DNA from: Phycisphaerae bacterium
Lineage (GTDB): Bacteria > Planctomycetota > Phycisphaerae > UBA1845 > Fen-1342
Assembly (NCBI GenBank): GCA_022072445.1
Contig: JAJVHV010000005.1
Coordinates: 1 to 64,000 of the forward strand
Reading direction: 5' to 3'
DNA: 64,000 nt
Shown: piece by piece, positions 5,962 through 53,087 of the stretch
Numbering within the stretch: position 1 is the first letter of the stretch
Layout of the letters: each line of letters begins with the position of its first letter
The notes under the pieces: generated by a model
What the model was told of the DNA's origin: nothing
Database searches by the model: none
What the model saw: the letters and a program-made list of their open reading frames with translations, nothing else
Program-made: the position numbers and the translations under genes

Positions 5962-5990
5962 CGCTGCGGCTGCGGCCGGCACGGCCCGGC

Positions 5991-7919: not shown

Positions 7920-7956
<37 letters not shown>

Positions 7957-8450: not shown

Positions 8451-8453
8451 TGC

Positions 8454-9656: not shown

Positions 9657-9903
9657 TCCTCGTCCTCCCACACTGGCGTCCGCAAGAACTTCTTGTCTGA
9701 ATCGCCTTGCGACGATGACTGATCCGCCGGAACTGATCGCATGTGCAACACTTGAGCGTCGGCCCCAGGTGGGTCGCCAGGCCCACCAATCCGTCTGCCC
9801 GAGTCCAGCGCTGGCTGAGAGGTACTCCCGACCCAGGCTTTCGTGCGGCCGCCGGGATTGGTTTCCAAGCCGACGATCGTCTGCTCGGCGCGACGCAGGC
9901 GCG

Positions 9904-20351: not shown

Positions 20352-21916
20352 TACTCTAACCCCGCGCCGACACCAGGGAGAGTAGTCGAGGGAACCGTGG
20401 AGCGGCTCGATGCAGGCTTCGATTGGGTGAAGGCCGTTTTTAGGACACTCCAAGCCGGGAGCGTCGTTGATGGCAGTGACCGCGCAGTGCGCGGCTGACC
20501 GGCTTGGAACACAATGGCGTCCACGCAGTAGTCGTTTGCCGGTCCGCCCTTGCGGAGGGTCGTGAATTCACTCGCTAAGACCGCGGATTCTGGGGTTGGT
20601 GTGCGGCTTGAGGAAACATGGCCAAGTGAGTCGCCACCGAGGGTCTCCCGAGGAGTCATGTGACGGCCAAAAACTCGCTCCGCCCACTCATTCGTCGTGG
20701 GATCACCGTTCGCATGAAAGATCTTCGTCTGGAGGTTTCCGAGCAGGCTCTGCGCCGCTGATACCGGGTCCCGAGTGGCGAGCATCGCATAGTAGTTCGG
20801 CAAGCTCTGCGTCAAGTAAACCGTCGCGGCCCGCTTACTCCGCGCCGTCTGCTGATACAGCACATCGTGGTTCGTGACGAAGTACTGCGACTCGTCGGCC
20901 CAGAGAAAGACCGTCCGGTCTTTGGCGGCAACAGCTAGCCGTTCGATCGCCCGCTGCCAGATCGTCTTGAAGAGGATTTGGGCGAAGCGGCCGACCTCGC
21001 CATAGTCCTTTATCGGAAGGTTCAGGACGATGACCTTGCCCTGGCGGGTTTCCTCCGGCGTGACAGTGAACGGCTTCTCGCCCGGCTTCGGATCGTCGGT
21101 CGGGCAAAAGAGGCGTTGAAGCGGCCCCCGCAGCAGGCCGGTTACGCGCGATGTGAAGCTGCTGACGATAATGCTTCGGGTTCGCGGAGCAAGCCCGGCA
21201 AAGTCATTCAGCCAGTACTCAATGGTCTGTTCAAGATCGACCAATTCGTTCGCGGTGAGTTCGTCTTTGACCGAATGGTCATTGGCCCGGCGCAGGCATT
21301 GTGCCGTATACGCATCGGAACGCAGGTAGGCCCGAATCCGTTTGCTCGGCGGCGCCGTAGTGATGATCCGGTTCACGTCTGCTAGCCGGACCTGCTTGTT
21401 TGCCAGCGCGGCGAGGTCGATCGCGTTGGTCACGAGCTGCCGAAGTGCATCCGCCCAATATGGGTCGGTCGAGCTTCCCCGGTCGTCGCCGCCGGTCGCC
21501 GCGATCGCCGTAGTGAACAGGGCGACCAGGTTGGGAGTCAGCCTCGCCCCGCCGCCGGCCTGGTACTCGTAATCCATGAAATCGAACCGCTGCCCGCGGT
21601 CCGGCGCCAGCTCGACTCGGTCATCCAATCGCCCGGCTTCTTCGAGGTAGTCGCGCCAGTTCCCAGCCTCATCCGACTTAGCGCAGAGCACTAGGCCGCC
21701 GAAGCCCTTGGCGAGCATCCGAGTCGCGAGGTGATAGCCGCTGCCGGTCGTCTTTCCGCTGCCGGTCGCGCCGAAGATCTGCGTCCCTTCGCAGGCGTCT
21801 CGGATGGACCAGTCGTGTGCGACCTTTCGGTCGACGTCCCGAAATGTCGTCACCGGCTCGTCCAAAGGATCGTTGGAGACCGGGGCGACAGAAGGTGAAT
21901 TTGCTGCGGCTGACAA
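20351..21916 (-). CDS. Type IV coupling protein-like ATPase (TraD/VirD4 class)
   Basis: A roughly 521-residue DNA-translocation ATPase. Walker A is GATGSGKTT (about residue 52), Walker B is VFLWADESQYF (about 338), followed by YQQTARSKRAATVYLTQSL, the conserved AAA motif of conjugative coupling proteins. No N-terminal membrane anchor is present, so this is the soluble TraD-like type; it would pass the relaxase-DNA complex to a transport channel. Start: a GGAGG at 21926-21930 sits directly against a GTG (21925), which leaves no spacing; the in-frame TTG at 21916 has 9 bp spacing and is preferred. Divergent from the relaxase gene. Confidence 0.85.
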   Translation of the reverse strand: MSAAANSPSVAPVSNDPLDEPVTTFRDVDRKVAHDWSIRDACEGTQIFGATGSGKTTGSGYHLATRMLAKGFGGLVLCAKSDEAGNWRDYLEEAGRLDDRVELAPDRGQRFDFMDYEYQAGGGARLTPNLVALFTTAIAATGGDDRGSSTDPYWADALRQLVTNAIDLAALANKQVRLADVNRIITTAPPSKRIRAYLRSDAYTAQCLRRANDHSVKDELTANELVDLEQTIEYWLNDFAGLAPRTRSIIVSSFTSRVTGLLRGPLQRLFCPTDDPKPGEKPFTVTPEETRQGKVIVLNLPIKDYGEVGRFAQILFKTIWQRAIERLAVAAKDRTVFLWADESQYFVTNHDVLYQQTARSKRAATVYLTQSLPNYYAMLATRDPVSAAQSLLGNLQTKIFHANGDPTTNEWAERVFGRHMTPRETLGGDSLGHVSSSRTPTPESAVLASEFTTLRKGGPANDYCVDAIVFQAGQPRTARSLPSTTLPAWSVLKTAFTQSKPASSRSTVPSTTLPGVGAGLE

Positions 21917-21933
21917 CCCTACCACCCTCCTAA

Positions 21934-21958
21934 CCTAAGACCGCACCGCGGGCTTAGG
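21934..21958. promoter_or_regulatory. Inverted repeat in the shared coupling-ATPase/relaxase start region
   Basis: Within the 46 bp between the two divergent starts, CCTAAG (21934-21939) and CTTAGG (21953-21958) form a perfect 6-bp inverted repeat. It is placed to be an operator for both transfer genes. Core promoters are not obvious in so short a gap, so they may lie inside the opposing genes. Confidence 0.4.
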
Positions 21959-21962
21959 GGAG

Positions 21963-24635
21963 ATGTCTGACGCGAATCTTGGCTTCCGGCTCAAACGCTG
22001 TTATGATTCATTCGTGCTGCGAATCACCGAAAAAACGAGTGCCGCTGCGGCCAAGAGCTACTACAAGGACGGCCTTGCCCGCGGCGACTACTACCTCGCC
22101 GGCGACGTGGTACCCGCTATCTGGGGCGGCAAGGCGGCGGAGCTGCTCGGCCTGGACGGCCACGTCGAGCGGTCAGCATTCTACCAAATGTGCGATAACC
22201 TGAAACCGGACGGAACGCCGCTGACCCCCCGCACACGGGCGGACCGCCGAGTCGCGTACGACATCACGCTCGACTGCCCGAAGTCAGTATCGCTCATCTA
22301 CGCGTTCGGCGGGGACGACCGAATCATGCCGGCCTTTCTCGAAGCGATTGCTGAGACCAATCAGCGAATCGAGGCCGACGCCCGCACCCGGGTCCGAACG
22401 GGTGGCCGCTCGGAGGACCGGCCCACGGGAAACCTCGTCTGGGCGACCTTCATCCACGACACGACCCGTCCGGTCGCGGGCATTCCTGACCCGCAGATTC
22501 ACGGTCACACCGTGATTTTCAACGCCACGCACGACCCTGTCGAGCACCGATTCAAGGCTGTCCAGTTGGGCTATATCCACACGAACGCTCCGTTCTACGA
22601 GGCGTTCTTCAACACTCTCTTCGCTTCCAAGATGCGGGCACTGGGTTACGGAATCGTCCGTAACGGCCGGTCGTGGGAGGTGGAAGGCATCGACCGCGGG
22701 CTGATTGAGTCTTTCTCGCATCGAACGCGTGAGATTCTCGCCGCCGCCAGGCGGCTCGGCATCACGGACCCCGACAAACTAGGTGGACTTGGTGCTCGCA
22801 CGCGGGACCGGAAGAGCAACGCGAAACCGTGGGACGTTGTCCGCGAAGTGTGGGCGTCCCGGCTTGCCCTGGACGACATCAAGGCCCTCCAGGCGGCGAG
22901 GCATCTCGGCCAGCGTGAGCGACCTGGCCCTACGCCACGGGAATCGCTGGAGCATGCGCGCGAGGAGTGCCTCACCCGCAGTGCCCTCGTGCCTGAGAAA
23001 GTTCTCCTCGAAGCCGCCATGCGATTCGGTGTGGGGTATGTGTCGCTCGCGGACCTTGAGGCAGAGTTGCCGAAGCTGGGCATGGCTGTACGGGAGGTCC
23101 GAGGCGAACGACACGTCGGTGATGACTCCCGGCTTCGCGATGAGAAGTCCATGCTGGCGGTTGCCCGTGAGACACGAGGTACCTTCCGGTCTTTCTTCCA
23201 TGACGACGTGGTGATGCCGAAGGGAGCGACGCCACGCGAAGAGCAGGTTCTGACACATCTGTCGAAATGTCGGGACCAGATTATCCTGGCCCGACTTCGG
23301 CCCGAAACCGGCTTCGAAGTCGTCAAACGTTTGGAGGCGCGTGGCTTTGAGGTGACACGGTTCGACGGTCGGTCATTGAAGCTCCCGGGCGATGAGCTTG
23401 ACCGGACGCCAATGAGCAATCCCGTGTGGTGGGTGGACAATGCCCAGCACATTGGGACGAGCGAGATGGCTGACCTGTTCCGGAAGGCGAACGATTCTGC
23501 CGTTCGCGTGGTGCTGGTTCCCTCACCGGGCCGCGTTAGCCGGCACAGTCCGCTGCCCCTGCTCGGCTCCCGGGCTGGCCTCCGTACGCCATCATTCGAA
23601 GCAAAACGCACGGCTCGTGAACAGCATCGCGACGCTGCAAGGGCCTTGGAAACTGGTCGTCCTGAAACCGCCCTCAAGCGGCTGGATACACTCGGCGCCG
23701 TCGTAGAGTGTGCTCCCGAGTCGCTGCAGTCGACTATCGCTCAGGCGTATGCCCAGCGGGACAAAGCCGGGAAACAGAGCCGCGTAACAGTCAACGAGGA
23801 ATCCGTGATCGACAAGTTGACTGAGGCGATTCGTTCCGCCTTGCGTCGCCTCAAGATACTGGGGCGTTCCCGCAAGTTCGAAAAACTCACCCCTGTTCAT
23901 CGTTCGGATGATGAACGCAGCGACCCATCCATGTACCGGCCAGGGCAGATTGTCGTGTTCTACCGGTCAATCAAGGGTTTTCGGGCCGGCCAGCGATACA
24001 AAGTTGTTAGCCGTGACCCGTTCGGTAATATCCTCGCCCGGAACCTCAGGCCGCGAAAGGGGCTGATTCAATCGGCTGTTCCGTTCGTTGAAGCACTGCC
24101 GCTGTTATCTCCCAATACGTTCGCGGTTTTTCAGCGTTCAACTATAGAGCTCGCGAAAGGCGACCGTCTTTTTATCACCCGGAGCGGGCGGACGCTGAAT
24201 CAGAGTTTTGGGCCCGAGCTGTTCATGTCCAAGCAGTCGCTCGCCAAAAACGCCGAGTTCTCCCGCAGCCTTGGCCTGGAGCCGCCAGACCGTCGGTATC
24301 GCGTCCGCCGGGGGATGACGCCTCGAATCAAGCGTTTCACCTTGACGGGCGATTTGCTGTGTGACAATGGCTGGATAATTTCGAAGAACTTCGGGCACTG
24401 GGACCACGCGTACTGTAGTGTGGGTGATACCAACGGGGCTGACGCGGTCTTTCGTGAGCGGGAGAAGGACGGTGCTGCACGCACGACCTTTTACACAACA
24501 GACCGGGGTAATCTGTTCGAGGCGGCTCGTGAACGCCAAAGAGCTGCGCAATCTGAGCGGCGGACTGACACCGTGAACCGTCAAGATCGCTCGCGAGGTC
24601 GCAGTCAGAACCGAGGGATGGACTATGGGCGTTGA
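21963..24635 (+). CDS. MobF-family (TrwC-like) conjugative relaxase
   Basis: An 890-residue relaxase. N-terminal residues carry the SAAAAKSYYKDGLARGDYY stretch with paired tyrosines (about 30-43) and the metal-binding triad in DPQIHGHTVIFNATHD (about 176-191); both define MobF enzymes, which nick oriT and stay bound to the 5' end. The usual C-terminal SF1 helicase is degenerate: no Walker A is seen, and the Walker B-like segment reads VWWVDNAQHIGTSEMADLF with DN in place of DE. The start is uncertain: ATG 21963 abuts GGGGAG; a GTG at 22014 (VLRITEKTS) fits family N-termini. Overlaps the next gene by 11 bp. Confidence 0.88.
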   Translation: MSDANLGFRLKRCYDSFVLRITEKTSAAAAKSYYKDGLARGDYYLAGDVVPAIWGGKAAELLGLDGHVERSAFYQMCDNLKPDGTPLTPRTRADRRVAYDITLDCPKSVSLIYAFGGDDRIMPAFLEAIAETNQRIEADARTRVRTGGRSEDRPTGNLVWATFIHDTTRPVAGIPDPQIHGHTVIFNATHDPVEHRFKAVQLGYIHTNAPFYEAFFNTLFASKMRALGYGIVRNGRSWEVEGIDRGLIESFSHRTREILAAARRLGITDPDKLGGLGARTRDRKSNAKPWDVVREVWASRLALDDIKALQAARHLGQRERPGPTPRESLEHAREECLTRSALVPEKVLLEAAMRFGVGYVSLADLEAELPKLGMAVREVRGERHVGDDSRLRDEKSMLAVARETRGTFRSFFHDDVVMPKGATPREEQVLTHLSKCRDQIILARLRPETGFEVVKRLEARGFEVTRFDGRSLKLPGDELDRTPMSNPVWWVDNAQHIGTSEMADLFRKANDSAVRVVLVPSPGRVSRHSPLPLLGSRAGLRTPSFEAKRTAREQHRDAARALETGRPETALKRLDTLGAVVECAPESLQSTIAQAYAQRDKAGKQSRVTVNEESVIDKLTEAIRSALRRLKILGRSRKFEKLTPVHRSDDERSDPSMYRPGQIVVFYRSIKGFRAGQRYKVVSRDPFGNILARNLRPRKGLIQSAVPFVEALPLLSPNTFAVFQRSTIELAKGDRLFITRSGRTLNQSFGPELFMSKQSLAKNAEFSRSLGLEPPDRRYRVRRGMTPRIKRFTLTGDLLCDNGWIISKNFGHWDHAYCSVGDTNGADAVFREREKDGAARTTFYTTDRGNLFEAARERQRAAQSERRTDTVNRQDRSRGRSQNRGMDYGR

Positions 24636-28935: not shown

Positions 28936-29460
28936 ACCGGATGGGCGCGGCCCTGCCATGGTCCGGCTTGAATCCTGCTGTCTCATGGCTGCTGCCGCAT
29001 TGTTCTGTTTGAACTTCAACTTTTCAGACTATCTGCACGCCGGCGACGCCTCGCAGCGTTTGCGCTGCAAGCTAAATCAGATTGGGTCGTGCCGTGGGAG
29101 TTGGGCTGGCTGGTGGACGCTATGAGACCTGATTCGTGCGGAGGGGGTTGGCTCTCCTGTGTAGGGCCGTTCGCGACTGGCCGGGCGTGCCCCCAGCATC
29201 AGGTGCGTAGGGACCCGCTGTTTTTCCCCTGCGAAGGGTCGTCACCGGCAGTCACCCGCCGCTTGCCGCCGGAACGTCCTTTCTTGCGTCTGAAGTGAGG
29301 TCGGCGAGTGCTGTAAGGGAGTCTGATTCCTGTTAAGCGGTTCGAAGGTGACTTGGGCTCAGAAATGCGCTAGGCTCGACCTGCGAGACACTGTTTGTTT
29401 CGCGTTCGTCAGAATCATGCAAACGCGTGGCCTGACGTCTGAATCGTGGGATCGGACACC
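28936..29460. other. Gene-free stretch before the structured region
   Basis: About 525 bp without a supported gene. Open frames are short and lack ribosome-binding sites. Fewer strong hairpins are visible here than in the following 1.5 kb, so I place the left edge of the structured region near 29460, but it could begin earlier. Confidence 0.5.
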
Positions 29461-31010
29461 CGGTAAACCTGACCACCAATCAGGCTAAGGGGGCGGACTT
29501 CATCATCCGCCATGTTCGAGGCTCGTAGCGCTGGATTGCCATGAGAGTGGCTCGTCCAGTGCGAGGGAGGCTCGACAGAGTAAACCCGAATTCTTCGGAG
29601 TAATCCTGTTGTTCTATCCCATGTAAGTCCGGGCGAACCGCACACATTCTCAGTTCGTGGCTGCGTCTAATCGGCGGTCCGGGTGCGCGCCGTTCGCCCA
29701 AGTGCCGGCCTGCGGGTCGGCAGGAAGACGGGCGACCGGGACACACTCGCGCGCTCGCGCGAGCCGGATCAGTCAAAGTGGGTGATGCCGCCATGCGGCG
29801 GATAATCCCCCTGCGGGGTTCGGGCCAACCTTCGAGCGCATGCTCGGAGCGGCCCGCTCAACGCCAGCCCAGGCAGGGAGCTCGTCGGCAGCGATGCCGG
29901 CGACCGGGGCGATGATAAGCCTCGGCGTTCCACGAAAATCGTGGACGGTGAAAAGCTCAACTGCGAAAGGCGGGATGACCGCTTCTGGGTGAATTTGATC
30001 GGAGACGGTGCCAAACCGCGATAGAAAGACCTGCGCTGAGGGTAAGGGGAGCTTCTAGATTCGTACCCCGAAATCGTCCGTTTCGGCGGGCGTAAACATG
30101 CCCTCCGGCGGGAGCCGGCGGGTGATCAGCGTTGTGAACGCAACGTGCGGGAGAGACGCACGCGGCGTTTCCAGGTCAAGCGACGTGACCGATCAGACGG
30201 AGACTGGTTCTAACCGGGGAAGGACTTCGGCGGCCGGGGTGATGCCCGGTGCCCGCGATTTATCGCGTGGGTGCTTGAAAAGCCGGAGTCTGGGAGCGGG
30301 GCCTCAGTAGGAGCACGCGGAAGCGTGGCGGCAAAGCGGCAAGGCAGTCGCGATGCCGTTCGTGCATTTACGGGTGGTGCCGGATGCTGAACGACGACGA
30401 AAGGGCTGACGAGCAATTCCCATGTTTGCAGACGTGTCGGTGCGGCGCCGGGGCAGGGAAGTCCTGCCCCGGCCCGTTTCGGCGGGTCGGAAGACAGCCA
30501 ATGCGGTCAAACGAGGACCCTCGGGAGAGGGCCGTCGTTTGGCAGCGGAATGACGATGCACAGGCGGGGTGTACCCGCGTGTGCGTCGAGGTTGGGTGGC
30601 CGCAACTGCTGTGGATTCGCACTGATTTCTCGTAGTGCGGGATGCGTGGCATTCGCAAGAGAATTCGGCGGCTTGGTGCAGCGAGAGCATGAATCGGTGC
30701 TGCGATTTTGTGCATTGAGCAACTGCAATAGATGAATCTAGCCGCATGGTGCGGACGAGGGCCGGTCGCATGATGCGAGTCGATGAGCTGACGGCGACAC
30801 CGGCGACGGTGGGGCCAGAAGCAAGGTCGGATTCGCAACGGCGGGGAAGCGACGGCATTTGGATGCGCCAACGCGGTGATGGATTCACTGGTGGCAGTGT
30901 GCTCGAGGCGTAGCGGGAAGCGGCCTGGTTCTCATCGAAGAAGGTGGTTCTGCGCGCCGAGCCGGTAACGCGGGCGACCGCGTGGCCGGTGTGCGGGAGG
31001 TTCGGGTTCG
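29461..31010 (+). ncRNA. Candidate giant structured RNA (about 1.5 kb)
   Basis: No protein-coding frame is supported, yet strong hairpins follow each other almost without gap. Examples: 29468-29484; 29492-29511; 29531-29559 with an inner GCCA/TGGC; 29703-29722; 29746-29763; 29788-29801; 29807-29818; 29821-29856 (CGGGCC/GGCCCG around an inner 8-bp stem); 29884-29901 with a GCGA loop; 29929-29945; 29968-29984; 30068-30086; 30144-30162; 30254-30267; 30448-30472 (10 bp, CCGGGGCAGG); 30508-30541 (CAAACGA/TCGTTTG, inner loop GGGA); 30552-30587; 30618-30639; 30678-30703; 30762-30774. Wobble pairs are G-T on the plus strand (A-C on the other) and tetraloops are GNRA on the plus strand, so the RNA is read left to right, towards the two genes at 31031 and 31337. 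It matches no family I can recall. Confidence 0.6.
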
Positions 31011-31015
31011 AGCGA

Positions 31016-31027
31016 AAGGAGGTGATC
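31016..31027 (+). promoter_or_regulatory. Extended Shine-Dalgarno site
   Basis: AAGGAGGTGATC, 12 bases fully complementary to the usual 3' end of bacterial 16S rRNA, with GGAGG ending 8 bp before the ATG at 31031. Such full-length complementarity is rare; a shorter echo, AAAGGAGGTGA, recurs at about 31263-31273. Confidence 0.8.
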
Positions 31028-31030
31028 TGA

Positions 31031-31273
31031 ATGGGTTGGTGGCGCACGCGGAGCGGCGGGGTTATCGGCGACGGGCCGGCGAACATCATCGACGAGTTCG
31101 ATGAGGTCGCGTGGAAGCAGCCCTCGGAGATTCCGCCGAACGTGCGGGCACGCATCGTGGCGTGCTATCGGGAGGATTTCGACCGCGAGCCGACGGAACA
31201 GGAACTCCGGGAGTTGCTGGACTTCTGCGACGATGTCGGCCCGGACGGTTCATGCTCGAACGAAAGGAGGTGA
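31031..31273 (+). CDS. Small conserved-type protein linked to the structured RNA
   Basis: An 80-residue protein: Trp/Arg-rich start (MGWWRTRSGGVIGDGPANII), then an acidic helical core (DEFDEVAWKQPSEIPPNVRA, then ARIVACYREDFDREPTEQEL, then RELLDFCDDVG). The segment IPPNVRARIVACYREDFDREPT resembles a small DNA- or protein-binding helical bundle. No family named. It has an exceptional ribosome-binding site and is followed, 63 bp later, by the 191-residue gene; the pair looks like a module downstream of the RNA. Confidence 0.7.
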   Translation: MGWWRTRSGGVIGDGPANIIDEFDEVAWKQPSEIPPNVRARIVACYREDFDREPTEQELRELLDFCDDVGPDGSCSNERR

Positions 31274-31336
31274 ACAGGGCTTTGCGGGGTTGTGCCAGAA
31301 CAACCCGCTCATTTTGTCGGAGGAGGAGGGAGTCGC

Positions 31337-31912
31337 ATGGAGTATCGGTGTGTCGCAACATCCATCGAAGGGTTCGTTCAGCAACTCGCCGTCGCGTACA
31401 TCACGCACGGCTACTGGTTCTATGTCGCCGGGACGATCCCGGAAGGGAAGGATCCGACCGCCGTCGATGCGAAGCTCATCGATCGCTACGGTATCGGCAT
31501 CTCGAAATGGGCGCGGTGCCGGCGCAAGAAGCGGGGCTTGGCGAACATGCAGTACCTGCGGCACGAGCAGTTCTTCGTCCTATTGGCGACCAGGGGCCAG
31601 CACGAGTTCTTCGACCGCGAGCGGGTATCGATTCGGGATGTACGGCGGGTACCGATTAAGTTCGCCGGCTACAGCGTTGGATGTCGCAAGGGGCGGGATG
31701 GGAGATGGCATGCGTCTGTTCGCCTAGCGGCGGATCGATACTTGGAGCTGCGCGACGGACTGCTTGAGGGGGCTGCCGGACGTAAATCGTCAACTTTCGG
31801 CGAGAGCATCAAGGGGATTCGGTTCGCTCGGTTCGGTCCAGTTCGCCAGCAGCTCTTGTGCCTGCGGCGCGCTGTCACTCTCGCAAGATTGCCCGTCCGA
31901 CCATTTCGGTAG
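31337..31912 (+). CDS. Conserved-type protein of unknown function, partner of the structured RNA
   Basis: A 191-residue basic protein. The start at 31337 is set by GGAGGAGGGAGTCGC. Core phrases: TSIEGFVQQLAVAYITHGYW, FYVAGTIPEGKDPTAVDAKL, YGIGISKWARCRRKKRGLAN, MQYLRHEQFFVLLATRGQHE, SIRDVRRVPIKFAGYSVGCR. The pattern (alternating beta strands, conserved Tyr/Trp, and a run of Arg/Lys) suggests an RNA- or DNA-binding alpha/beta protein. I recall proteins of this type recurring as hypotheticals in planctomycetes but cannot assign a function. Its position directly after the RNA region suggests a ribonucleoprotein or a mobile-element maturase/endonuclease role; no catalytic motif is obvious. Confidence 0.72.
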   Translation: MEYRCVATSIEGFVQQLAVAYITHGYWFYVAGTIPEGKDPTAVDAKLIDRYGIGISKWARCRRKKRGLANMQYLRHEQFFVLLATRGQHEFFDRERVSIRDVRRVPIKFAGYSVGCRKGRDGRWHASVRLAADRYLELRDGLLEGAAGRKSSTFGESIKGIRFARFGPVRQQLLCLRRAVTLARLPVRPFR

Positions 31913-31954
31913 GCCTGGGCGTACAACCAAGGTCGTCGATGTAACACCATGTGC

Positions 31955-32052
31955 CACATAGCGTTACGGACAGTCACATAGCGTTTGCTATGCGTAATTA
32001 CCATGCGCACGCGAACGCATCTTGTTGACGGATAAAACCCGGACGCTATGAT
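31955..32052 (+). promoter_or_regulatory. Promoter and operator of the defence operon
   Basis: TTGACG (32025-32030), 16 bp, TATGAT (32047-32052) is the best promoter match in the window. Upstream lie two direct repeats CACATAGCGTT (31955-31965, 31975-31985; 20 bp apart, two helical turns) and an inverted repeat CATAGC-GTTT-GCTATG (31977-31992). CGCTATG recurs at 32044-32050, overlapping the -10. The first gene encodes an XRE domain, so autoregulation through these sites is likely. The predicted transcription start (about 32059) leaves almost no leader before the ATG at 32061, so the mRNA may be leaderless. Confidence 0.65.
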
Positions 32053-32060
32053 GCGCAAGT

Positions 32061-35000
32061 ATGATGCGTGCGATACCGTCGGGTCGAGGTGATTCTGCTG
32101 TCGCCGACCGCGTAAGGCGTCTGCGCGAGAAACTCGGACTGACTCAGGTCCAACTCGCGGAGTCGCTGGGGGTCTCGTTCGCCTCCGTAAATCGGTGGGA
32201 AAACGGGCAAGCGAAGCCGGGCTCGTTGGCGTGGCAGCAGATTCTGCGGTTGGAGTCGGCTGGCCTGGGAGCCCTGGGGCCATCGGACGACGCTGAACAG
32301 CGCAAAGGGTCGGTTCCGCTTGGCACGGACTTCCTGGCATCCGCCGGACGAGTTCGCCTCGTGGCCGAAGCCGAACGGCTCTCCTACGGGCACCTCTTCA
32401 ACCCGACTTTCGCGACGGAAGTGTCGCTGATTGACCCGCTGCCGCATCAGCGGATCGCAGTGTACGAGCACATGCTAACCCAGCCTCGATTGCGATTGCT
32501 GCTCGCCGACGACGCCGGTGCGGGCAAGACGATTATGGCGGGGCTGTACATCCGCGAGATGCTCGCCCGTCGACTTGTTCGGCGTGTGCTAATCGTGCCG
32601 CCGGCCGGCTTGGTCGGGAACTGGGAACGGGAACTTCGGACTCTATTCAGCCTCAACTTCCGAATCATCCGTGGACCTGATGTACGTCAGGGGAACCCCT
32701 TCGCGGACGCCGAGAGCGACCTGGCGATTTGCAGCGTTGACACGCTGAGCGGTGAAAGGGTGTTCGGGCCGCTGAAGGACCCGAGCGTCGAACCCTACGA
32801 CTTAGTCATTTTCGATGAGGCGCACAAGCTCGCGGCTGATCGCGAGGCGGACCTGACAGTTCGCCGGACCGAACGATACAAGCTGGCAGAATCGCTTGCC
32901 GGTATTCAGACCGACGATGCGCGGTGGCTACTGCCGTGGTCGGCGCAGCACCTCCTCCTGCTTACGGCGACGCCCCATATGGGTAAGGACTACCCGTATT
33001 ACTGCCTGTGGCGACTGCTTGAGCCGGAAGTCTTGCCGACACTCGATGCGTTCAACGCGTATCCAACGGACGCTCGACGACGGCATTTCATTCGGCGAAC
33101 AAAAGAGGAGATGGTGCACCTTGATGGGAGGCCGCTCTACCCCACGCGGGAATCGAACACGCTGAGCTTCGACCTGACGCAAGGCAGTGTCAGCGAACAG
33201 GCGCTGTACGACAAGACCACTGCATACATGCAAGCCTTCTACAACGCCGCGCAGATTCTGAATCGCTCGGCCGCGCGATTGGCGATGAGCGTGTTCCAGC
33301 GGCGGCTGGCCAGTTCCACGTTCGCGGTCAAGCGGTCGTTCGAGCGCCGACTTGAGCGGCTTAACGGTTTCATTGAGCGCGTCCGGGCGGGCAGGATCAC
33401 GGCGGACGAACTCCTGAAGGCCCAGAGGGAACTGAATAATCGGCGGGACCCATTTGACGACAGCACGGCGGATGATGACGCGACTGAGGATGGACAAGAG
33501 CGACACGAGCTGGCCGAAGATGAACTGCTGGAAACCATCATCTACACCTCGCTCGGTGAACTCGAAGCGGAACGCACGCAGGTCCAGGAATTGGTGGAGC
33601 TTGCACAAGCCGTGCTCGACACTGGGCAGGAGTCGAAGTTCGAGAAGCTGCGAGACGTTCTGAGCGACCCACAGTTTCGCGACGAAAAGCTCATCGTCTT
33701 CACCGAACACCGGGACACGCTGGCCTGGCTGGGACAACGGCTGGAGGCTCTCGGCTTCACCGACAAGATCGCGTTCCTTCACGGCGGGATGGACTACAAG
33801 GAGCGCGAGCGGCAGGTCGAGCATTTCCGCAGAGCGGACGGGGCCCAGTACTTGGTGGCAACCGACGCTGCGGGCGAAGGTATTAACCTCCAATTCTGCT
33901 GGTTGATGGTCAATTACGACATCCCGTGGAACCCAGCCCGTCTTGAACAGCGGATGGGCCGCATCCACCGCTACAAGCAGCAGCACGATCCGGTGATCAT
34001 CGTGAACCTCGTAGCAGGTAAGACGCGCGAGGGCCGCGTCCAGGCGACGCAGCTTCGCAAGCTTGAGGCGATGCGACGCGAGTTGGGCTCGGACAAGGTC
34101 TTCGACGTGATCGGCCGCACGTATGAGAACGTGTCCATCACGGCTCTGATGGCACAGTGCCTCACGGAGGATGGAGCATCGGAAGCCGTGAAGCGAATCG
34201 AGGGGACCCTCACCAAAGAGCAGATCGAAGCGCTTGAGGCACGCGAGAAGCGCCTGTTCGGCGATGGCGGCGACGTGAAGGGCGAACTGCCGCGCTTGCG
34301 TGATCAGTCGCGGGTGGAGATGTTCCGCAGGTTGTTGCCCGGCTACGTCCGCCAGTTTGTTGAGCGCGCCGCGGCCGAGCTCGACCTGGTGGTCGACGGC
34401 GACCTCGACGATTTCTTCGCGCTGCGGTCTGGGCGAGCGGCGGGGTTGGACCTGCTCTGGCCTGTGCTCGAATCGTATCCTGAGGAGACTCGCGAGCGAT
34501 TGACGGTACACCGCCCGAGCGAGTCGGAGGATGCGATCTTCCTGCACCCCGGGGAGCCACTGTTCGAGCGGCTTCGGGCCGTTGTGCTGGATCGGTTTGC
34601 AGCGGACGCCCAACGCGGCGCCGTGTTCATCGACCCGACGGCGGTTCGCCCGTACATCTTCCACCTGGCCGAGATCACTGTGGAGCGCCGCGCCGGCTCG
34701 ACGGGCGCGGACGGTGACGCAGAGTTGCTTGAATGCCGCCTGGTCGGTTTGAAAGACGACTCGGGGGTGATCGACGAGTCTCCGGTCGAGTACCTGCAGC
34801 TCCTGCGCGGCAGTGATCGCTTCCCGCCGGAGTTCGCTCGCGTCGCGCTGGCCGCGGAGGAGTCGAAGATTCGGGCGTCGCAGTACGCGGAGGAGAAGGT
34901 TGCGGCGCCGCTTGCGGCGGCCCGACAACGGGCGTTGCTCGACTCGCTGGCCGAGCGCGAGGAGTTTCTCGTCCGGGGTTACAACTCGCAGGATGCGGAG

Positions 35001-35624
35001 TTGGCAAGTCAGCGCGCTCGTCTGACAGATCGCCTCCGTGCCGGCGATGCAAAAGCGCGGGCTGCCGTGGACGCCATCAAGCAGCAGCAACGCACGCTAG
35101 CCGACCGACGGGATGCGGCCGTCGCAACGCTACGGGCCGAGCCGGCTGAGATCTTACCGGGTGAAATTCGCTTCCTCGCGCACGCCTTGGTTGTGCCGTC
35201 CGCTGACCCCGAGGACCGGAAACGACACGATGCCGAAGTCGAGGCAATCGCTATGCAGGTGGCGACGGTATACGAAGAAGCGTTGGGGGCGACGGTCCGC
35301 GATGTTTCAACGCCACCCAAGGCACGGGCCGCTGGCCTGTCCGACAGCCCCGGCTTCGACCTCCTCTCGATTTATCCATCCGGCGAGCGGCGGGCCATCG
35401 AGGTGAAAGGCCGGGCCGCCATCGGTGACGTGGAAGTTACGGAGAACGAGTGGGCCAAGGCCTGCAACCTGCGCGACGGGTACTGGCTCTATGTCGTGTT
35501 CAATTGTGCTTCACAGCATCCGCAGGTGACGCGGGTGCGCGATCCGTTCGGGAAACTATTGGTCCGTGCCAAGGGCGGCGTGGTGATCGACGAGAGCGCG
35601 ATCTTCGCCGCGGCGGAGTCCTGA
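32061..35624 (+). CDS. XRE-HTH / SNF2-type helicase / DUF3883 fusion
   Basis: A 1,187-residue protein. Residues about 15-68: XRE helix-turn-helix (LREKLGLTQVQLAESLGVSF, ASVNRWENGQAKPG). Residues about 130-660: SNF2/RapA-type helicase with Walker A DDAGAGKT (150), DEAH in LVIFDEAHKLA (252), LLLTATPH (about 304), and the C-lobe DAAGEGINLQFCWLMVNYD, PWNPARLEQRMGRIHRYKQ (about 610-650). An acidic insert is at 465-490. Residues about 1090-1175: DUF3883-like, GFDLLSIYPSGERRAIEVKG, a PD-(D/E)XK-like core with E-V-K. Related helicases occur with DUF1156 methylases and in DISARM-like systems. The HTH domain is an unusual addition. First gene of the operon. Confidence 0.88.
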   Translation: MMRAIPSGRGDSAVADRVRRLREKLGLTQVQLAESLGVSFASVNRWENGQAKPGSLAWQQILRLESAGLGALGPSDDAEQRKGSVPLGTDFLASAGRVRLVAEAERLSYGHLFNPTFATEVSLIDPLPHQRIAVYEHMLTQPRLRLLLADDAGAGKTIMAGLYIREMLARRLVRRVLIVPPAGLVGNWERELRTLFSLNFRIIRGPDVRQGNPFADAESDLAICSVDTLSGERVFGPLKDPSVEPYDLVIFDEAHKLAADREADLTVRRTERYKLAESLAGIQTDDARWLLPWSAQHLLLLTATPHMGKDYPYYCLWRLLEPEVLPTLDAFNAYPTDARRRHFIRRTKEEMVHLDGRPLYPTRESNTLSFDLTQGSVSEQALYDKTTAYMQAFYNAAQILNRSAARLAMSVFQRRLASSTFAVKRSFERRLERLNGFIERVRAGRITADELLKAQRELNNRRDPFDDSTADDDATEDGQERHELAEDELLETIIYTSLGELEAERTQVQELVELAQAVLDTGQESKFEKLRDVLSDPQFRDEKLIVFTEHRDTLAWLGQRLEALGFTDKIAFLHGGMDYKERERQVEHFRRADGAQYLVATDAAGEGINLQFCWLMVNYDIPWNPARLEQRMGRIHRYKQQHDPVIIVNLVAGKTREGRVQATQLRKLEAMRRELGSDKVFDVIGRTYENVSITALMAQCLTEDGASEAVKRIEGTLTKEQIEALEAREKRLFGDGGDVKGELPRLRDQSRVEMFRRLLPGYVRQFVERAAAELDLVVDGDLDDFFALRSGRAAGLDLLWPVLESYPEETRERLTVHRPSESEDAIFLHPGEPLFERLRAVVLDRFAADAQRGAVFIDPTAVRPYIFHLAEITVERRAGSTGADGDAELLECRLVGLKDDSGVIDESPVEYLQLLRGSDRFPPEFARVALAAEESKIRASQYAEEKVAAPLAAARQRALLDSLAEREEFLVRGYNSQDAELASQRARLTDRLRAGDAKARAAVDAIKQQQRTLADRRDAAVATLRAEPAEILPGEIRFLAHALVVPSADPEDRKRHDAEVEAIAMQVATVYEEALGATVRDVSTPPKARAAGLSDSPGFDLLSIYPSGERRAIEVKGRAAIGDVEVTENEWAKACNLRDGYWLYVVFNCASQHPQVTRVRDPFGKLLVRAKGGVVIDESAIFAAAES

Positions 35625-35627
35625 GAA

Positions 35628-36278
35628 TTGCGAACATTCGACTTCTATGAATTCGCTGGCATCATCGCGCCGGGTGCCGTCGTCATTACCGGGGTCGCGG
35701 TAATTCATCCGCCGCTGAAGCAACTCGTCGGTGACCAAGGCTTGAGCCTCGGCGAGTTCGGCATCTTTGTCGTGCTCGCGTATGTCGCCGGTCATCTGGT
35801 GCAAGCCGTCGGAAATCTGCTCGAATGGTGCTGGTGGAAACTGTGCGGTGGATGGCCTTCCGACTGGGTGGGTCGCCGAAAGGGCGACCTGCTCAACCGG
35901 GCACAGCTTGAGCGACTCGAATCCGTTATCGAGGCGCAGCTCCACCTGCCTGGCATGGCGCCTTGCTCGGAAATGACCCGCAAGAAGTGGCACCCAGTCG
36001 TACGCCAAGCCTATGCAGCCGTCGCCGCAGCCGGGCGTGCGGGGCGAATCGAATCGTTCAACGGCAACTACGGCCTGTGTCGCGGCATCGCCGCGGCATT
36101 CGTGGTCGTGTTCACCCTCTCGTTGTTTCAGGACATCGGGCAGCATTGGCCGGAGCGGATCGCGCTGCTGGTCGCCCTTGGTTTGGCACTCGCGCGGATG
36201 CATCGATTTGGCGTTCATTACGCCCGCGAGTTATTCGTTCAGTGTCTGACTCTCGACGCACGCAAAGAGGAGTCGTAA
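35628..36278 (+). CDS. Membrane protein in defence operon
   Basis: A 216-residue protein with about four membrane helices: FAGIIAPGAVVITGVAVI (10-27), FGIFVVLAYVAGHLVQAV (44-61), IAAAFVVVFTLSLF (151-164) and IALLVALGLALARM (177-190). The start is TTG at 35628 (LRTFDFYEF, read as Met), 3 bp after the helicase stop; no ATG gives the first helix. The phrase RTFDFYEFAGIIAPG occurs on membrane proteins in defence islands; a membrane-acting effector is possible but not shown. Confidence 0.7.
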   Translation: MRTFDFYEFAGIIAPGAVVITGVAVIHPPLKQLVGDQGLSLGEFGIFVVLAYVAGHLVQAVGNLLEWCWWKLCGGWPSDWVGRRKGDLLNRAQLERLESVIEAQLHLPGMAPCSEMTRKKWHPVVRQAYAAVAAAGRAGRIESFNGNYGLCRGIAAAFVVVFTLSLFQDIGQHWPERIALLVALGLALARMHRFGVHYARELFVQCLTLDARKEES

Positions 36279-36315
36279 TGCGGAACGCCAAGGTCGGCTT
36301 GGTTGGAGTGTGCTG

Positions 36316-37173
36316 ATGGTCGTAAAGGTGTTTGACGTCGCGCACGGTTCGGCGAGCTTTCTGATCTCGCCGACCGGCAAGTTCGAGCTTGTCGATCTTG
36401 GAGCGCGCGCCGATTGGTCACCGCTCGACCACATCTATCGAAACTACATCCCGTGCGGCGGTCGGCTTGATCGCATCGTGCTAACGCACCACCACGGCGA
36501 TCATCTAGACGACGTGTACAAGTTGACTACTGACCGGATGCCGCGCGTCGTGCTACGGAGGTCGCTCGTGGGCCGGTACGAGCAGGCGTGTAGGGAAAGC
36601 AATTCGACAGAAGGCCAGCAGAAGGCGCGGCACTTTGATCAGTTGTTCGCGGGATACACGGGCAGCGTGTCAGACGTTGACATGGGCTCGCTCGCTTGGG
36701 GAATCGGCAACCACAACTGGTCCTTGTCGGTGGAACAGGCAGATGCTGTCACATCGTCGTGGGGTGGCATGGCTAACTGTTGCAGCTTCGTCGATCTATA
36801 CGACCACAGCGGCACGAAGATGCTGCTGTGCGGGGATATGGAAACCGATGGCATGGTGCTCCTGCTGAATACATACTCTGACTTCCGTTCGATGGTCCGG
36901 GGCGTAAACATCCTGCTCGCGCCGCATCACGGTCATTCATCCGGGTTCTCAACAGACCTGATGAACGCGATCGGCAAGCCAGACATCGTCATCGCTTCGA
37001 TCATGTCCGGCGACGAGCACGTGGACAGCCGCTATTCCAGTTCGGATTGGGTGAAGGGTGTTCGATGGTCGGACGGCAGTGTCAGGCGTCTTCTGACGAC
37101 GCGCAATTACGGTGCGATTACGGTCACGTCGCGCGGAAACGGAGGCTTTCAGGTGACGACTAACCAGCGCTGA
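36316..37173 (+). CDS. Metallo-beta-lactamase-fold hydrolase (ComEC-like)
   Basis: A 285-residue protein with the metal-binding motif LTHHHGDHLDD (HxHxDH) at residues about 55-65, a second metal ligand near LLCGDME (about 170-176) and H in LLAPHHGHSSGF (about 203-214), as in the soluble domain of ComEC and related nucleases or phosphodiesterases. All ligands seem present, so the protein should be active. The start at 36316 has GGAG 7 bp upstream. It is followed 32 bp later by a second, divergent member of the same fold. Confidence 0.82.
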   Translation: MVVKVFDVAHGSASFLISPTGKFELVDLGARADWSPLDHIYRNYIPCGGRLDRIVLTHHHGDHLDDVYKLTTDRMPRVVLRRSLVGRYEQACRESNSTEGQQKARHFDQLFAGYTGSVSDVDMGSLAWGIGNHNWSLSVEQADAVTSSWGGMANCCSFVDLYDHSGTKMLLCGDMETDGMVLLLNTYSDFRSMVRGVNILLAPHHGHSSGFSTDLMNAIGKPDIVIASIMSGDEHVDSRYSSSDWVKGVRWSDGSVRRLLTTRNYGAITVTSRGNGGFQVTTNQR

Positions 37174-37205
37174 CGAAGGGCAGCATTTGGCAACCGGTGA
37201 CGATT

Positions 37206-38222
37206 ATGGCAACCATCCACTTTCTGAATGTGCGTAACGGCGATTGCTCAATCATCCAGAACAACAGCGGCCGCACGACCGTGATCGACATCTGCAACGG
37301 CAACGCGGCGAACCAGCGGAAGGTCGCTGAGGCGATCCGGAACATACTCGGGATTGAGACATTCGGCGCGCCCGCTCGACGGGGCGGCAACTTCGGGATG
37401 CGCGACAAGCCCACAGACCCCGTCGAGTACATCCGTGCCCTTGGCGTCGGGCAGGTCTTTCGGTTCATCCTATCACACCCCGACATGGACCACATGGATG
37501 GATTCAAGGCTCTCTGCGACGACATTGGCATCGTGAACTTCTGGGATTCCGGCGTGAGAAAGGAAAAGCCCGATTTCTCTGGCGGCCCCTACAACGAGGG
37601 AGATTGGGACCACTACGTCAAGGTGCGGGACGGACGCACGGATGTGAAGGTTGTGACTCCGCGAGCTGGCAGCCATTTTCAGTTTGCCAACGCCGGCGAG
37701 CCAAACGATGGCGGTGACTATCTGAGCATCGTGGCGCCCAGCAACAATCTTGTTGATGAAGCGAACGCCGACGGCGACGTAAACGATGGTTCCTACGTCA
37801 TCGTGTATCGGTCGGCTGGTGGGCGAATCGTTTTTCCAGGCGACGCACACGATGCCACGTGGGAGTACGTTCTTGCGAATCACCACGACCTTGTTGCTGA
37901 TTGCGCCGTGTTGATCGCTCCGCACCACGGTCGAGCGTCCGATCGGTCTTACGACTTCCTCGACGTGCTCAGGCCTGGTCTGACGTTGTTCGGGTGCGCG
38001 GATTCAGAACACCTCGCGTATGACGCCTGGAGCAGCCGAGACCTCCCCATCATCACCAACAACCAGGCGGGGAACATTGTCTTGGAGCCCAGCGGCGATG
38101 GCGTCGACGTTTTCGTTGAGAATCTTGAGTGTGCCCGGACGTACGAGTCGGCTGATCTTACGCGGAGGTCGCACGGGTGTTATTTCGTTGGGCGGGTTGC
38201 GAAGCCTCAGCCGGTGGCCTGA
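37206..38222 (+). CDS. Second metallo-beta-lactamase-fold hydrolase
   Basis: A 338-residue protein, MATIHFLNVRNGDCSIIQNN, with the metal motif ILSHPDMDHMDGFK (about residues 92-105; HxDxDH), acidic ligand in VFPGDAHDATWE (about 213-224) and LIAPHHGRASDRS (about 239-251). It differs from its neighbour in length and loops, so this is a pair of paralogues from distinct lineages, not a recent duplication. The start is uncertain (GTG 37197 or ATG 37206); no strong ribosome-binding site. Confidence 0.82.
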   Translation: MATIHFLNVRNGDCSIIQNNSGRTTVIDICNGNAANQRKVAEAIRNILGIETFGAPARRGGNFGMRDKPTDPVEYIRALGVGQVFRFILSHPDMDHMDGFKALCDDIGIVNFWDSGVRKEKPDFSGGPYNEGDWDHYVKVRDGRTDVKVVTPRAGSHFQFANAGEPNDGGDYLSIVAPSNNLVDEANADGDVNDGSYVIVYRSAGGRIVFPGDAHDATWEYVLANHHDLVADCAVLIAPHHGRASDRSYDFLDVLRPGLTLFGCADSEHLAYDAWSSRDLPIITNNQAGNIVLEPSGDGVDVFVENLECARTYESADLTRRSHGCYFVGRVAKPQPVA

Positions 38223-38259
38223 CGACGTGGTGATTCAGGCGGCATGAAAGGAATCTCGG

Positions 38260-39378
38260 ATCACGACTGAACCGAAACAACTCGGAGCCCACGCTCAAGC
38301 CGACGTAGAGCAGCTTCGGCGCCGGGCGCTGGAGAGCGTTCAGCTTGCGATCGAGCTGTTCAATCGCCCGCACGAGGGCGCTCGGCCAGAGGCGGTGCTC
38401 ATCCTGCTGCATCACAGCTTTGAAATGATTCTCAAGTCGCTCATCGTTGAACGCACCGGCACCGTCTTTGACGCGGAGCGCGGCTACTCGTACGGGTTTG
38501 ATACCTGCCTGCGATTGGCAGCGGACGAGCTCGATCTGCTTACGAAGGACCATCGGAAGTTCCTGTCGATCCTCGACAATCTGCGCGATTCTGCGACGCA
38601 CTACTACCAGGAGGTCTCGGAGCCCGTCCTTTACATCTTCGCCCAGGCGTCTGTGTCGCTCTTCAATGAGTTAATCCGAAAGGCGACCGGGAAGGGGTTG
38701 TTGGAGTTTTTGCCAGGCCGGGTGCTGCCCATTTCCTCGATCCCGCCGCAGCGACTCGGGTGTGTGCTCGACGAGGAGTTCAATCGCCTTCGCGAACTTC
38801 TGCGCCAGCCTGACATGAACAAGCGGCAGGCGGTGGCGATGTTGCGACCATTGATGGCTTTCAAAGTCGGCGGTGAAGAAACGCACCGTCGCATGACCGT
38901 GGCGGAATTGGAAGTCGCCGTTGAGAATCTCAGCGCCGCTCAGAGTTGGCGGGTCGTGTTTCCGGAGATTGCTCGAATCGAGCTCGGCTCGGACGGCGAC
39001 GGGATATCAGTCGGCTTCAAAGTCGTTAAGGACACGCCGGAGGCGCTGCCTGTTCGCGTCTTGAAGCCCGGCGATCCTGAGCCGACCGGCGGGGTCATCA
39101 TCCAAAAAGAGGTGAATCTGTTTGATAAGTTCAACCTCGGACTCGATCAGCTGTCGAAGAAGCTCGGCATTAGTAGGTGGCGAGTGATCGCCATGATTCG
39201 TGAGTACAAGCTCGATTCCGACGACGGTTGTTTTCGCGAACTACGCATTGGATCACAGCGCTACAAGCGATACAGCATGAAAGCCCTCGACGCCCTGCGT
39301 GCGAAGCTCGACACCGCTGAGGAGTGTTGGGCTAAACACGGCTACGAGCTGACCCATCGGAAGGGAAAAAGAAAATGA
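38260..39378 (+). CDS. DUF3644-like protein with apparent AUC start
   Basis: About 372 residues. The conserved N-terminal part includes LESVQLAIELFNRPHEGARP and EAVLILLHHSFEMILKSLIV, then RGYSYGFDTCLRLAADELDL and DSATHYYQEV, matching DUF3644, a HEPN-like helical domain of defence loci. The C-terminus has a winged-helix-like stretch (LSKKLGISRWRVIAMIREYK). No ATG, GTG or TTG exists in frame before 38395, which would cut the conserved domain. The only well-placed codon is ATC at 38260, 7 bp after AAAGGA and reading I-T-T-E-P-K. The stop overlaps the methylase start (ATGA at 39375). Confidence 0.68.
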   Translation: MTTEPKQLGAHAQADVEQLRRRALESVQLAIELFNRPHEGARPEAVLILLHHSFEMILKSLIVERTGTVFDAERGYSYGFDTCLRLAADELDLLTKDHRKFLSILDNLRDSATHYYQEVSEPVLYIFAQASVSLFNELIRKATGKGLLEFLPGRVLPISSIPPQRLGCVLDEEFNRLRELLRQPDMNKRQAVAMLRPLMAFKVGGEETHRRMTVAELEVAVENLSAAQSWRVVFPEIARIELGSDGDGISVGFKVVKDTPEALPVRVLKPGDPEPTGGVIIQKEVNLFDKFNLGLDQLSKKLGISRWRVIAMIREYKLDSDDGCFRELRIGSQRYKRYSMKALDALRAKLDTAEECWAKHGYELTHRKGKRK

Positions 39379-42300
39379 CCGACAAACGCCTCATCGAAGT
39401 CGCCTTTCCACTCAAGCAAGCGTCGATTGACTCCGTGCATGAGAAGAACGTGCGGCATGGGCATATTTCGACGCTGCACATCTGGCCGGCGCGGCGGCCG
39501 CTTGCGGCTTGTCGGGCGGCGCTGATTGCGACGCTGTTGCCGGACCCCGGCTCGCCGGAGAAGCGGAAGGAACTGTGCGAGAAGATTGGCGGCAAGGTCG
39601 TGAAGGTCGTCAAGCGGAAGAAGTTGCCGACGGGCAAAGTCGAGGACAAGGTCGTCGAGGAAACCGTCGGCGGCATCCTGCACTGGGGCCGCGAGACGGA
39701 GAACAAGGCGGACGTCGATTGGTTCCGCGAGGAAATCCGCAAGGCCTACGGCGGGCGGGCGCCGAAGGTGCTCGACCCGTTCGCTGGCGGCGGCGCCATT
39801 CCGTTGGAGGCGATGCGGCTGGGCTGCGAGGTCACGGCCATCGACATTAACCCGGTCGCGTGGTTCATCCTCAAGTGCACGCTTGAATACCCGCAGAAGC
39901 TGGCCGGCCAGAAGCGGCGGCTGCCGGATTTCGCCCTGCGCGACTCGGAGTTCATGGAGAGCTTTTTCAAGGCTCACGGCTTCAAGAAGGCGCAGATCCG
40001 CACGTTCCTGAAGCACCTGGGCCTGGGCGAGGATGATGCGCCACCCCTTCCGGGCATGGGCGGTGTCGCCGGCGGCGAGATCGATCCGTCGTTCCTGGAG
40101 GCCGACCTTGCCTGGCACGTGCGGGCGTGGGGCCGATGGGTATTGGCCGAAGCGCGGAAGGAGCTGGCCCGCTTCTATCCGACCTACGCTGATTATCAAC
40201 CGCTCGAAGATGTCGAGGAGTGGCGCGAGAAGCACCCGAAACTCGTGCGGCCGATGCGGCTCGTGCCGCTGAAAGACGACGGCACGCCGGACATCGACGC
40301 GCTGAATGAGGAAGTGCTCAAGGAGGCGTTCGCCAAGGACAAGAAGTTCTGGGGCAAGGACAAGGAGAGCAAGAAGCACCGCAAGGAAGCGACGGAGGCG
40401 TTCTTCAAGAAAAAAAGCAATCCGCGCTGGGTGGCGAAACCCACGGTGGCCTACCTCTGGGCGCGGACGGTGCGGTGCAAAAACTGCCGCGCGACGGTCC
40501 CTCTGCTTAAGACGCGCTGGCTAGCAAAAAAGAGCAACAAGCGCGTCTTGCTCAACATGGAGCCGAACGCAGAGGGTACAGGCGTCGTGTTCAGTGTCGA
40601 GAGTAATGTGCCGGCGATCGGCGGGAACAACGCTCAGAAGCGCGAGCATGACCGGAGACTCGGGCAGGGAACAATGAGCCGCGCCGGGGCGTGGTGTCCG
40701 TCTTGCGGGAAGCCGAGTACGGTCGCAATGGAGATGGAAGATGTTCGGCAGGAGGGCGTGAACGGTCGACTCGCCGCGATGATGACAGCGGTGGTAGTCG
40801 ATGGTGTGGCTGGGAAGGAATATCGCCTACCGACGCGCGAAGAGCTGCAAGCGGCGGATGATGGAGCGGCGCACGTTGATCGCGTGTTCGCAGATGTTCC
40901 GTTCGGTGTTCCTGAGGAGCCGACGCCCAAAGGCGGTGGTACTGGCGCGGGCCGCGCGTTTAGTGTCCAGGGATACGGGATGATGCGCTGGCGTGACCTC
41001 TTTGCGCCGCGCCAGTTGGTAGCGCTAGGGACCGTCGCGCGAGCAACGCGCGATGTCGCTCAGGCTATGCGGGACGAATCGTACGATCGGGGATGGCATG
41101 AGAACGTCATCGGGTTCCTCGCCCTCATGCTCGACCGGCTTTCTAACCAGACAAGCGCGCTGTCCCGATGGAATCAGGGAGGTGAGAAGATCGAGGGGAC
41201 GTTCGCACGCTTCGCCTTGCCGATTCTCTGGGACTTCGCCGATACGAATCCGCTAGCGAATACGAGCGGCGCATACATGAGCGCGGTCGAGTGGGTCTCG
41301 CTCGCAGTTTCGCATCTACTCGCAGCTACGACCAACGCTCCTTCTCCACATCCGAACTGCCGATCGGCGATTGAGTCGCTCAACGGAGCTTCATTCGATC
41401 TCGTCGTCACCGATCCGCCATACTACGATGCGATCCCCTACTCTGACTTGATGGACTACTTCTACATTTGGTTGCGTCGTTCCGTCGGAGATGCGAATGA
41501 TGCGATTCGAGAGGCTTTCCATGAGCCGCTGTCGCCGAAATGGGATCATGCCAATAACGATGGCGAGCTAATCGACGATTCAAGCCGGCACGACAACGAT
41601 GCTGAGAAGTCAAAGGCCGTCTACGAGGACGGTATGGCTCGCGCATTTTTAGCGGCGTCGAAAGCTCTTGCTTCTGAGGGCCGCCTTGTCATCGTGTTCG
41701 CAAACAAGCAGCCAAATGCTTGGGAAACGCTCGTTTCGGCGATCATAAAGGCGGGCTTCGTCGTGGACGGAAGTTGGCCAATTCAAACTGAAATGGGCAC
41801 GCGGCAACGGGCGCTTACCTCCGCGGCTCTCGCATCGTCGGTATGGCTCGTTTGTCGAAAACGGCCCGAAACGGCACGCCCGGGCTGGGACAACACTGTG
41901 CTCGGGGAGATGCGCTCCCGCATCGGTGAACAGCTTCGGACGTTTTGGGATGCCGGCATTCGCGGCCCTGACTTCGTGTGGGCGGCGACCGGCCCCGCGA
42001 TGGAAGCGTACAGCAAGCACCCGTTCGTCAAGAAGGCCGACCAGCCGGGCGAGACGATGAGCGTGTCGGAGTTTCTGCGGGCGGTTCGCCGAATCGTCGT
42101 CGACTTCGTCGTCGGCCGAGTGCTGAGCGAAGCAAGCGGCACGGAATCCGACACCGAGACGACCGCTTCACTCGACGATGTGACCACCTACTACCTGCTG
42201 CACCGGCACGACTTCGGCATGGAGGATGCACCGGCCGGGGCGTGCATCCTGTACGCCGTGTCGTGCAACCTCTCGGAGAGCGACCTGGCGGACAAGTACG

Positions 42301-42824: not shown

Positions 42825-42828
42825 GCGA

Positions 42829-44604: not shown

Positions 44605-44645
44605 GTGTGTAGCCGCGACACGCTGGATCGCAAAGGACTGAAACC

Positions 44646-53043: not shown

Positions 53044-53087
53044 GGTTTCTGGTTCAACTCGGCCAACGTGGCCGAAGGAGGTTTTCG

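Follow-up and report, generated by a model that had tools for sequence, protein, structure and literature searches.

The window, a 64,000-nt stretch of DNA from a Phycisphaerae bacterium (assembly GCA_022072445.1, contig JAJVHV010000005.1, positions 1-64,000, forward strand), carries a strongly structured, non-coding plus-strand RNA at 29400-30600, which is followed on the same strand by two genes. The first (31031-31273) is an 80-aa ORF of no known family that has a strong ribosome-binding site and is retained in near relatives without indels, with substitutions of 100/83/162 over the three codon positions; it gave no significant match in Pfam or NCBIfam. Part of the DNA immediately before this ORF (about 30963-30997) occurs again elsewhere in the genome, as a 35-nt match on contig 12. 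The second gene (31337-31912) encodes a 191-aa protein, here called AcpG-like, with codon-position substitutions of 237/213/504. The position-3 excess in both ORFs, as in genuine genes, bears out the two co-directional downstream genes that a first-pass annotation of this DNA had proposed. Judging from a TrwC (MOBF) relaxase and a TrwB-like coupling protein encoded at 20351-24635, the module lies within a mobilizable element that has integrated. MOBF is also the type of the K2D and Calothrix plasmids that bear the module. An Hma-like defence operon (32061-47969) begins right after the module and comprises an HmaA-like SNF2 helicase (32061-35624), two MBL-like genes (36310-38222), an HmaB-like DUF1156 methylase (39375-42824), a GmrSD_N nuclease gene (42808-44604) and a DUF499 ATPase (44646-47969). 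Further along, a CHAT peptidase, NACHT-like and TPR protein (55211-59116) is likely encoded by another defence gene, and two DUF932 genes lie in opposite orientation at 53037-54188 and 61317-62444; relatives of the latter occur near the RNA in other loci.

The first-pass annotation had described about 1.5 kb upstream of the two genes as a gene-free structured RNA transcribed from the plus strand. Folding of 200-nt windows against dinucleotide-shuffled sequence gave plus-strand z-scores down to -7.2, with many such windows across 29401-30900. Minus-strand scores over the same region were mostly weaker, in keeping with the annotated orientation, and scores in the adjoining coding DNA used as a control (31001-34000) were near 0. 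Codon-position counts revealed no coding signal on either strand of the RNA region. When near relatives were compared, substitutions in the RNA core favoured no codon position and most indels (77 of 92) broke the frame, so that no conserved reading frame runs through the region and no ORF lies inside the RNA. A conserved antisense ORF at 30304-31155 was also considered and dismissed, as it lacked codon periodicity and its indels were mostly frame-breaking. The plus-strand fold and the lack of coding signal thus stood, but the full 1.5 kb did not: the conserved ribozyme covers about 29460-30415 together with a hairpin at 30506-30543, and 30620-31010 is non-coding spacer, with 0.295 substitutions per site versus 0.174 in the core. 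No Rfam family reached threshold in the window, where only sub-threshold chance matches (Pistol, RAGATH-5) appeared, and the earlier view that this giant RNA of a mobile element is none of GOLLD, ROOL or HEARO proved correct.

A DNA search found homologues of the RNA in 32 of 61 related genomes, several of which have more than one copy. A distant DNA match fell on a Calothrix plasmid, where an HMM detected two copies of the RNA (E 9e-106 and 8e-89), and a distant DNA search in phages found no homologue. We aligned 96 homologues, of which 79 were left once near-identical ones had been dropped, and searched for covariation with a home-made R-scape-style test, in which APC-corrected G statistics were compared with 40 null alignments simulated by re-dealing substitutions along the tree. 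Covariation among homologues, on which the first-pass annotation had staked its proposal, was found: at empirical E<0.05 the 79 sequences contained 68 covarying pairs, of which 66 have a canonical share of 80% or more. These pairs trace a full group II topology, with D1, D2, D3, D5, D6 and a split D4. Consistently, homologues matched RF00029 above the gathering threshold at the D5-D6 position, and in the homologous loci such matches lay only upstream of the protein gene. The window's own copy has no RF00029 match; a possible reason is the extra T in its D5 (29536), which is common to a few relatives. Among the individual stems annotated earlier, 29884-29901 and 30508-30541 are directly supported by covariation; 29968-29984 is conserved but varies little, and the 10-bp stem at 30448-30472, though present in the sequence, lies in a poorly conserved stretch.

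All elements of the RNA lie on the plus strand, in the order D5-D6, linker, D1-D2-D3, with D4 split between both ends. The helix list and the pseudoknot pairs place stems specific to circularly permuted (CP) ribozymes in the 5' region (29400-29520). There, a P2-type hairpin (29493-29498:29506-29511) carries a loop (29502-29505) that pairs with the D2 loop at 30240-30243; in the 79 sequences these pseudoknot pairs are 95-100% canonical and show compensatory changes (A-U to G-C, C-G to U-A). A further hairpin at 29468-29484 is a candidate for loop pairing with 30373-30377 in D3, where the sequence is mostly conserved. The strand 29521-29526 pairs with 30409-30414, forming a helix that connects the base of D5 to the end of D3. 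It is 97-100% paired, and 29521:30414 and 29523:30412 covary. We read this helix as D4 with its loop opened, 30409-30414 being the 5' strand and 29521-29526 the 3' strand, so that both ends of the RNA lie inside D4. The catalytic hairpin, D5 (29528-29562), is identified by RF00029 in the homologues and by covarying pairs, and is capped by a GNRA tetraloop (29543-29546). D6 (29565-29620) has seven covarying pairs (29565:29620 and 29573-29578:29606-29611). Beyond the linker, D1 spans 29730-30217 (covarying 29737-38:30215-16, 29768-72:30204-08 and 29996-30001:30190-95, among others), D2 spans 30222-30291 (30222-30231:30282-30291 and 30250-30257:30266-30273) and D3 spans 30300-30407 (30300-30304:30403-30407, 30336-30340:30347-30351 and 30361:30393). 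The conserved 3' hairpin beyond the core (30506-30543) covaries at 30514:30535 and 30521:30528.

Within D6 a bulged A at 29616, the branch point, is invariant in 79 of 79 homologues, and the conserved borders of the linker are the 3' splice site AT (AU in RNA; 29621-29622) and the 5' splice-site motif GGGCGA that opens D1 (29730-29735); taken together, branch A, AU and GGGCGA are invariant in 77-79 of 79. The linker between them (29623-29729) is 107 nt long in the window and ranges from 13 to 220 nt across the homologues, with no conservation of sequence. Its last six bases (29724-29729) are IBS1, which pairs with EBS1 (30057-30062) in the loop of a D1 hairpin closed by 30047:30067. Across the homologues 348 of 444 IBS1-EBS1 pairs could form, compared with 293 +/- 6.6 when linkers were shuffled (maximum 315 in 2000 shuffles), and among all D1 windows the loop 30057-30062 scored best for pairing with the linker end. 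This covariation implies that the linker end is recognised like the 5' exon of a normal intron. The window copy itself forms just 3 of the 6 pairs.

A D5-D6-first order is the hallmark of the CP group II ribozymes, described as 'T-large' RNA, for five members of which back-splicing has been shown (Roth et al. 2021, PMC8637638). We are nearly certain that the RNA is a CP group II ribozyme; it belongs to the class of Roth et al., and the first-pass suggestion of an undescribed system has to be given up. By analogy with the members studied by Roth et al., the class found in the window would be expected to catalyse back-splicing. A plus-strand transcript would fold as a group II intron does; the 2'-OH of branch A29616 would attack the 5' splice site at 29729/29730, and the 3' end of the linker, thereby freed, would then attack the 3' splice site at 29622/29623. 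The predicted products are a 107-nt circle and a 2'-5' branched RNA that still bears the downstream genes. Such an RNA could have arisen if an ordinary group II intron underwent permutation within D4, for example by tandem duplication and loss. A permutation is the most likely origin, since the protein gene still occupies the site of an intron ORF, after the 5' half of D4.

The AcpG-like gene follows the RNA in nearly all loci located by DNA search. A genome search with the protein alone returned 80 loci, and in 74 of these the RNA lies upstream on the same strand at a median distance of 353 nt; of the remaining six, four lie on contigs that lack upstream DNA, and in two the RNA is about 5 kb upstream, behind par and rep-like genes, so that the RNA accompanies the protein in 76 of 76 testable loci. 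In loci L107 and L111 (17-6612) a gap of about 5 kb, containing parA and a rep-like gene, separates the RNA from the AcpG gene, which comes immediately after the rep-like gene. Searching plasmids by protein alone added two, from Leptolyngbya and a planctomycete, both with the RNA upstream. On one Calothrix plasmid (L003), tandem CP group II RNAs (5743-6600 and 7873-8765) share one AcpG gene (9193-9786), which lies after the second. The single-contig genome G036 contains two copies of the RNA and no group II RT match was found in it, indicating that in this genome the constant partner is the AcpG-like protein rather than a canonical intron RT; a general need for a canonical intron RT acting in trans is unlikely for the same reason.

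The AcpG-like family has no match in Pfam or NCBIfam, and phmmer with Thermus AcpG against the ORFs of the loci found nothing, the link being visible only by profile comparison. With hhalign, the family aligned to Thermus AcpG (TTHC007) over 168 columns with P 1.6e-5 and a score of 42.8, against maxima of 21.4 for 60 column-shuffled decoys and 21.3 for other plasmid proteins. On the strength of these scores we treat the family as AcpG, to which its profile marks it as homologous. Members are typically about 210 aa long; the window's copy has a C-terminal tail (31850-31912) about 20 residues shorter than its kin.

AlphaFold modelled a compact family member with a pLDDT of 96 and the window's own copy with 91. 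For the compact model the highest-ranking Foldseek hits were RTs of group II introns and retrons (best E 4e-4), and RTs of group II introns also headed the structural alignment (8h2h_D, Z 9.6, 185 of 203 residues, 3.9 A); the same RT families lead for the model of the window protein (Z 9.4). In the predicted structures the match runs from the palm through the thumb, and the fingers are absent. We also looked for a YADD active site, and the invariant columns of the family contain no Asp pair. Comparison of the sequence profile with RT profiles, PDB chains, Pfam and NCBIfam gave no significant match (hhalign P 0.07-0.11); the maturase assignment is one of predicted fold, with moderate Z-scores and an rmsd of about 4 A. 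According to these models, the AcpG-like protein likely folds like the palm and thumb of an RT, lacking the fingers and any conserved catalytic aspartates. Because no Asp pair is invariant and the model begins at the palm, we call it maturase-like and not an active RT. As the partner of the RNA, it is most likely a reduced maturase that would bind and stabilise the RNA.

The loci found by protein search come from Planctomycetota, Verrucomicrobiota, Acidobacteriota, Nitrospirota, Nitrospinota and Gammaproteobacteria, the taxon being that given in the sequence records, and cultured hosts of the RNA-protein pair are Leptolyngbya boryana, Calothrix sp. NIES-4101, Thiocystis violacea and Tautonia sociabilis. 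What is new here is the presence of the class in Planctomycetota, Cyanobacteriota, Verrucomicrobiota, Acidobacteriota, Nitrospirota and others, some of which may already be metagenome entries in the supplement of Roth et al. The AcpG proteins of a Nitrospira MAG (L106) and a Deltaproteobacteria MAG (L088) are 65-70% identical to the clade of the window, closer than those of many planctomycetes; either a recent transfer or mis-binning of the contigs would account for this. Where 6 kb of upstream DNA is available (46 loci), genes for ParA, ParB or a replication-initiator-like protein neighbour the RNA in 22 loci. In the typical layout, parB-parA run leftwards and rep rightwards, followed by the RNA and AcpG.

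Six domains with an RT-like ORF after D3 are also typical of a normal intron, and canonical introns are present in some of the related genomes. We therefore considered an ordinary group II intron or a tandem pair, in which the 5' D5-D6 would be part of an upstream intron and D1-D3 and the ORF would belong to a normal one with its own D5-D6 after the ORF. However, in all but one of the 63 loci whose upstream DNA is long enough (62 loci) the elements run D5D6, D1, D2D3, protein; a single D1 is present in 62, and D5-D6 lies downstream of the protein in none, although 52 have at least 3 kb there. RF00029 matches being confined to the upstream side, the flank of D5 covarying with the end of D3 in the split D4, and the P2-D2 pseudoknot being specific to the permuted class all speak against this arrangement as well. 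We rejected it on the permuted order and the missing downstream D5-D6, and regard it as very improbable. An unrelated giant RNA class of the GOLLD or ROOL type, resembling D5 by chance, is more improbable still: no Rfam model covers the whole RNA and the window copy escapes RF00029, but chance would hardly produce the invariant branch A, AU and GGGCGA, the EBS1-IBS1 covariation, the six-domain topology and the AcpG homology.

More weight is due to a dead or decaying CP ribozyme that persists only as the leader sequence for the AcpG operon or as debris of a plasmid, with the protein acting on something else. The reaction appears futile, and the window copy has an extra D5 base and a shortened AcpG; with these two features and its 3 of 6 IBS1-EBS1 pairs, this particular copy may be impaired or decaying. 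Across the class, however, catalytic positions do not vary across several phyla, compensatory changes are ongoing and IBS1 changes in step with EBS1, from which we conclude that the class is under selection for a splicing-competent structure; decay as a general explanation is unlikely. A CP group II ribozyme, predicted to yield a 107-nt circle, with the AcpG-like protein as its partner and most likely a reduced maturase, is the reading in which we have high confidence.

We propose that the two form a back-splicing RNP whose ancestor was a group II intron that became permuted within D4. With somewhat more conviction than doubt, we extend this to an obligatory two-gene system, in which AcpG would be a miniaturised, polymerase-dead maturase and the D4-permuted intron would have been taken over by plasmid replicons (rep, parA/parB) in at least seven phyla, where it would yield an RNA circle together with a branched mRNA for AcpG and serve some plasmid-related function. 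Possible roles would be plasmid maintenance, autoregulation of acpG via the branched leader, or EBS1-guided trans-cleavage. Roth et al. detected no homology for AcpG and left open whether a protein partners the CP ribozyme (PMC8637638). A strict RNA-protein pair in several phyla bears on the latter question, and the predicted shrunken maturase would provide a structural answer on the nature of AcpG. If this is true, a group II retroelement lost its mobility and became a fixed RNP on plasmids, by a logic comparable to that of the maturase-like core of spliceosomal Prp8, and the class would offer compact ribozymes that make circles and come with a helper of their own.

Like the CP group II ribozymes of Roth et al., the RNA described here has the permuted domain order, linker borders of the form NU (3' splice site) and GGGCG (5' splice site), the branch A, a short variable linker, the P2-D2 pseudoknot, no internal ORF, a plasmid location (in pPNAP05 the copy is close to the origin; PMC8637638) and AcpG nearby. 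It is distant from them in sequence, the HMM of the present clade reaching at best E 0.03 on pPNAP05 and giving no match on pTT8, and occurs in phyla not named there. Its D5-D6 scores as canonical RF00029, whereas that of the Thermus and Polaromonas members does not, and linkers of 107 nt and more occur here, compared with 15-86 in the earlier set (PMC8637638). In the present loci the AcpG-like gene invariably lies downstream of the RNA and in its orientation, while in those of Roth et al. it is optional and in any orientation. With canonical bacterial group II introns and their RT/maturase the system shares the six domains, the D5/D6 sequence, EBS1-IBS1 and a protein of predicted RT fold encoded after the first half of D4, but it differs in its permuted order, in the lack of excision from an exon and in a protein of about 210 aa that has neither fingers nor conserved catalytic aspartates. 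GOLLD, ROOL, OLE and HEARO resemble it in large size and mobile-element setting; in contrast to these, it has no Rfam match and its topology is that of a group II intron.
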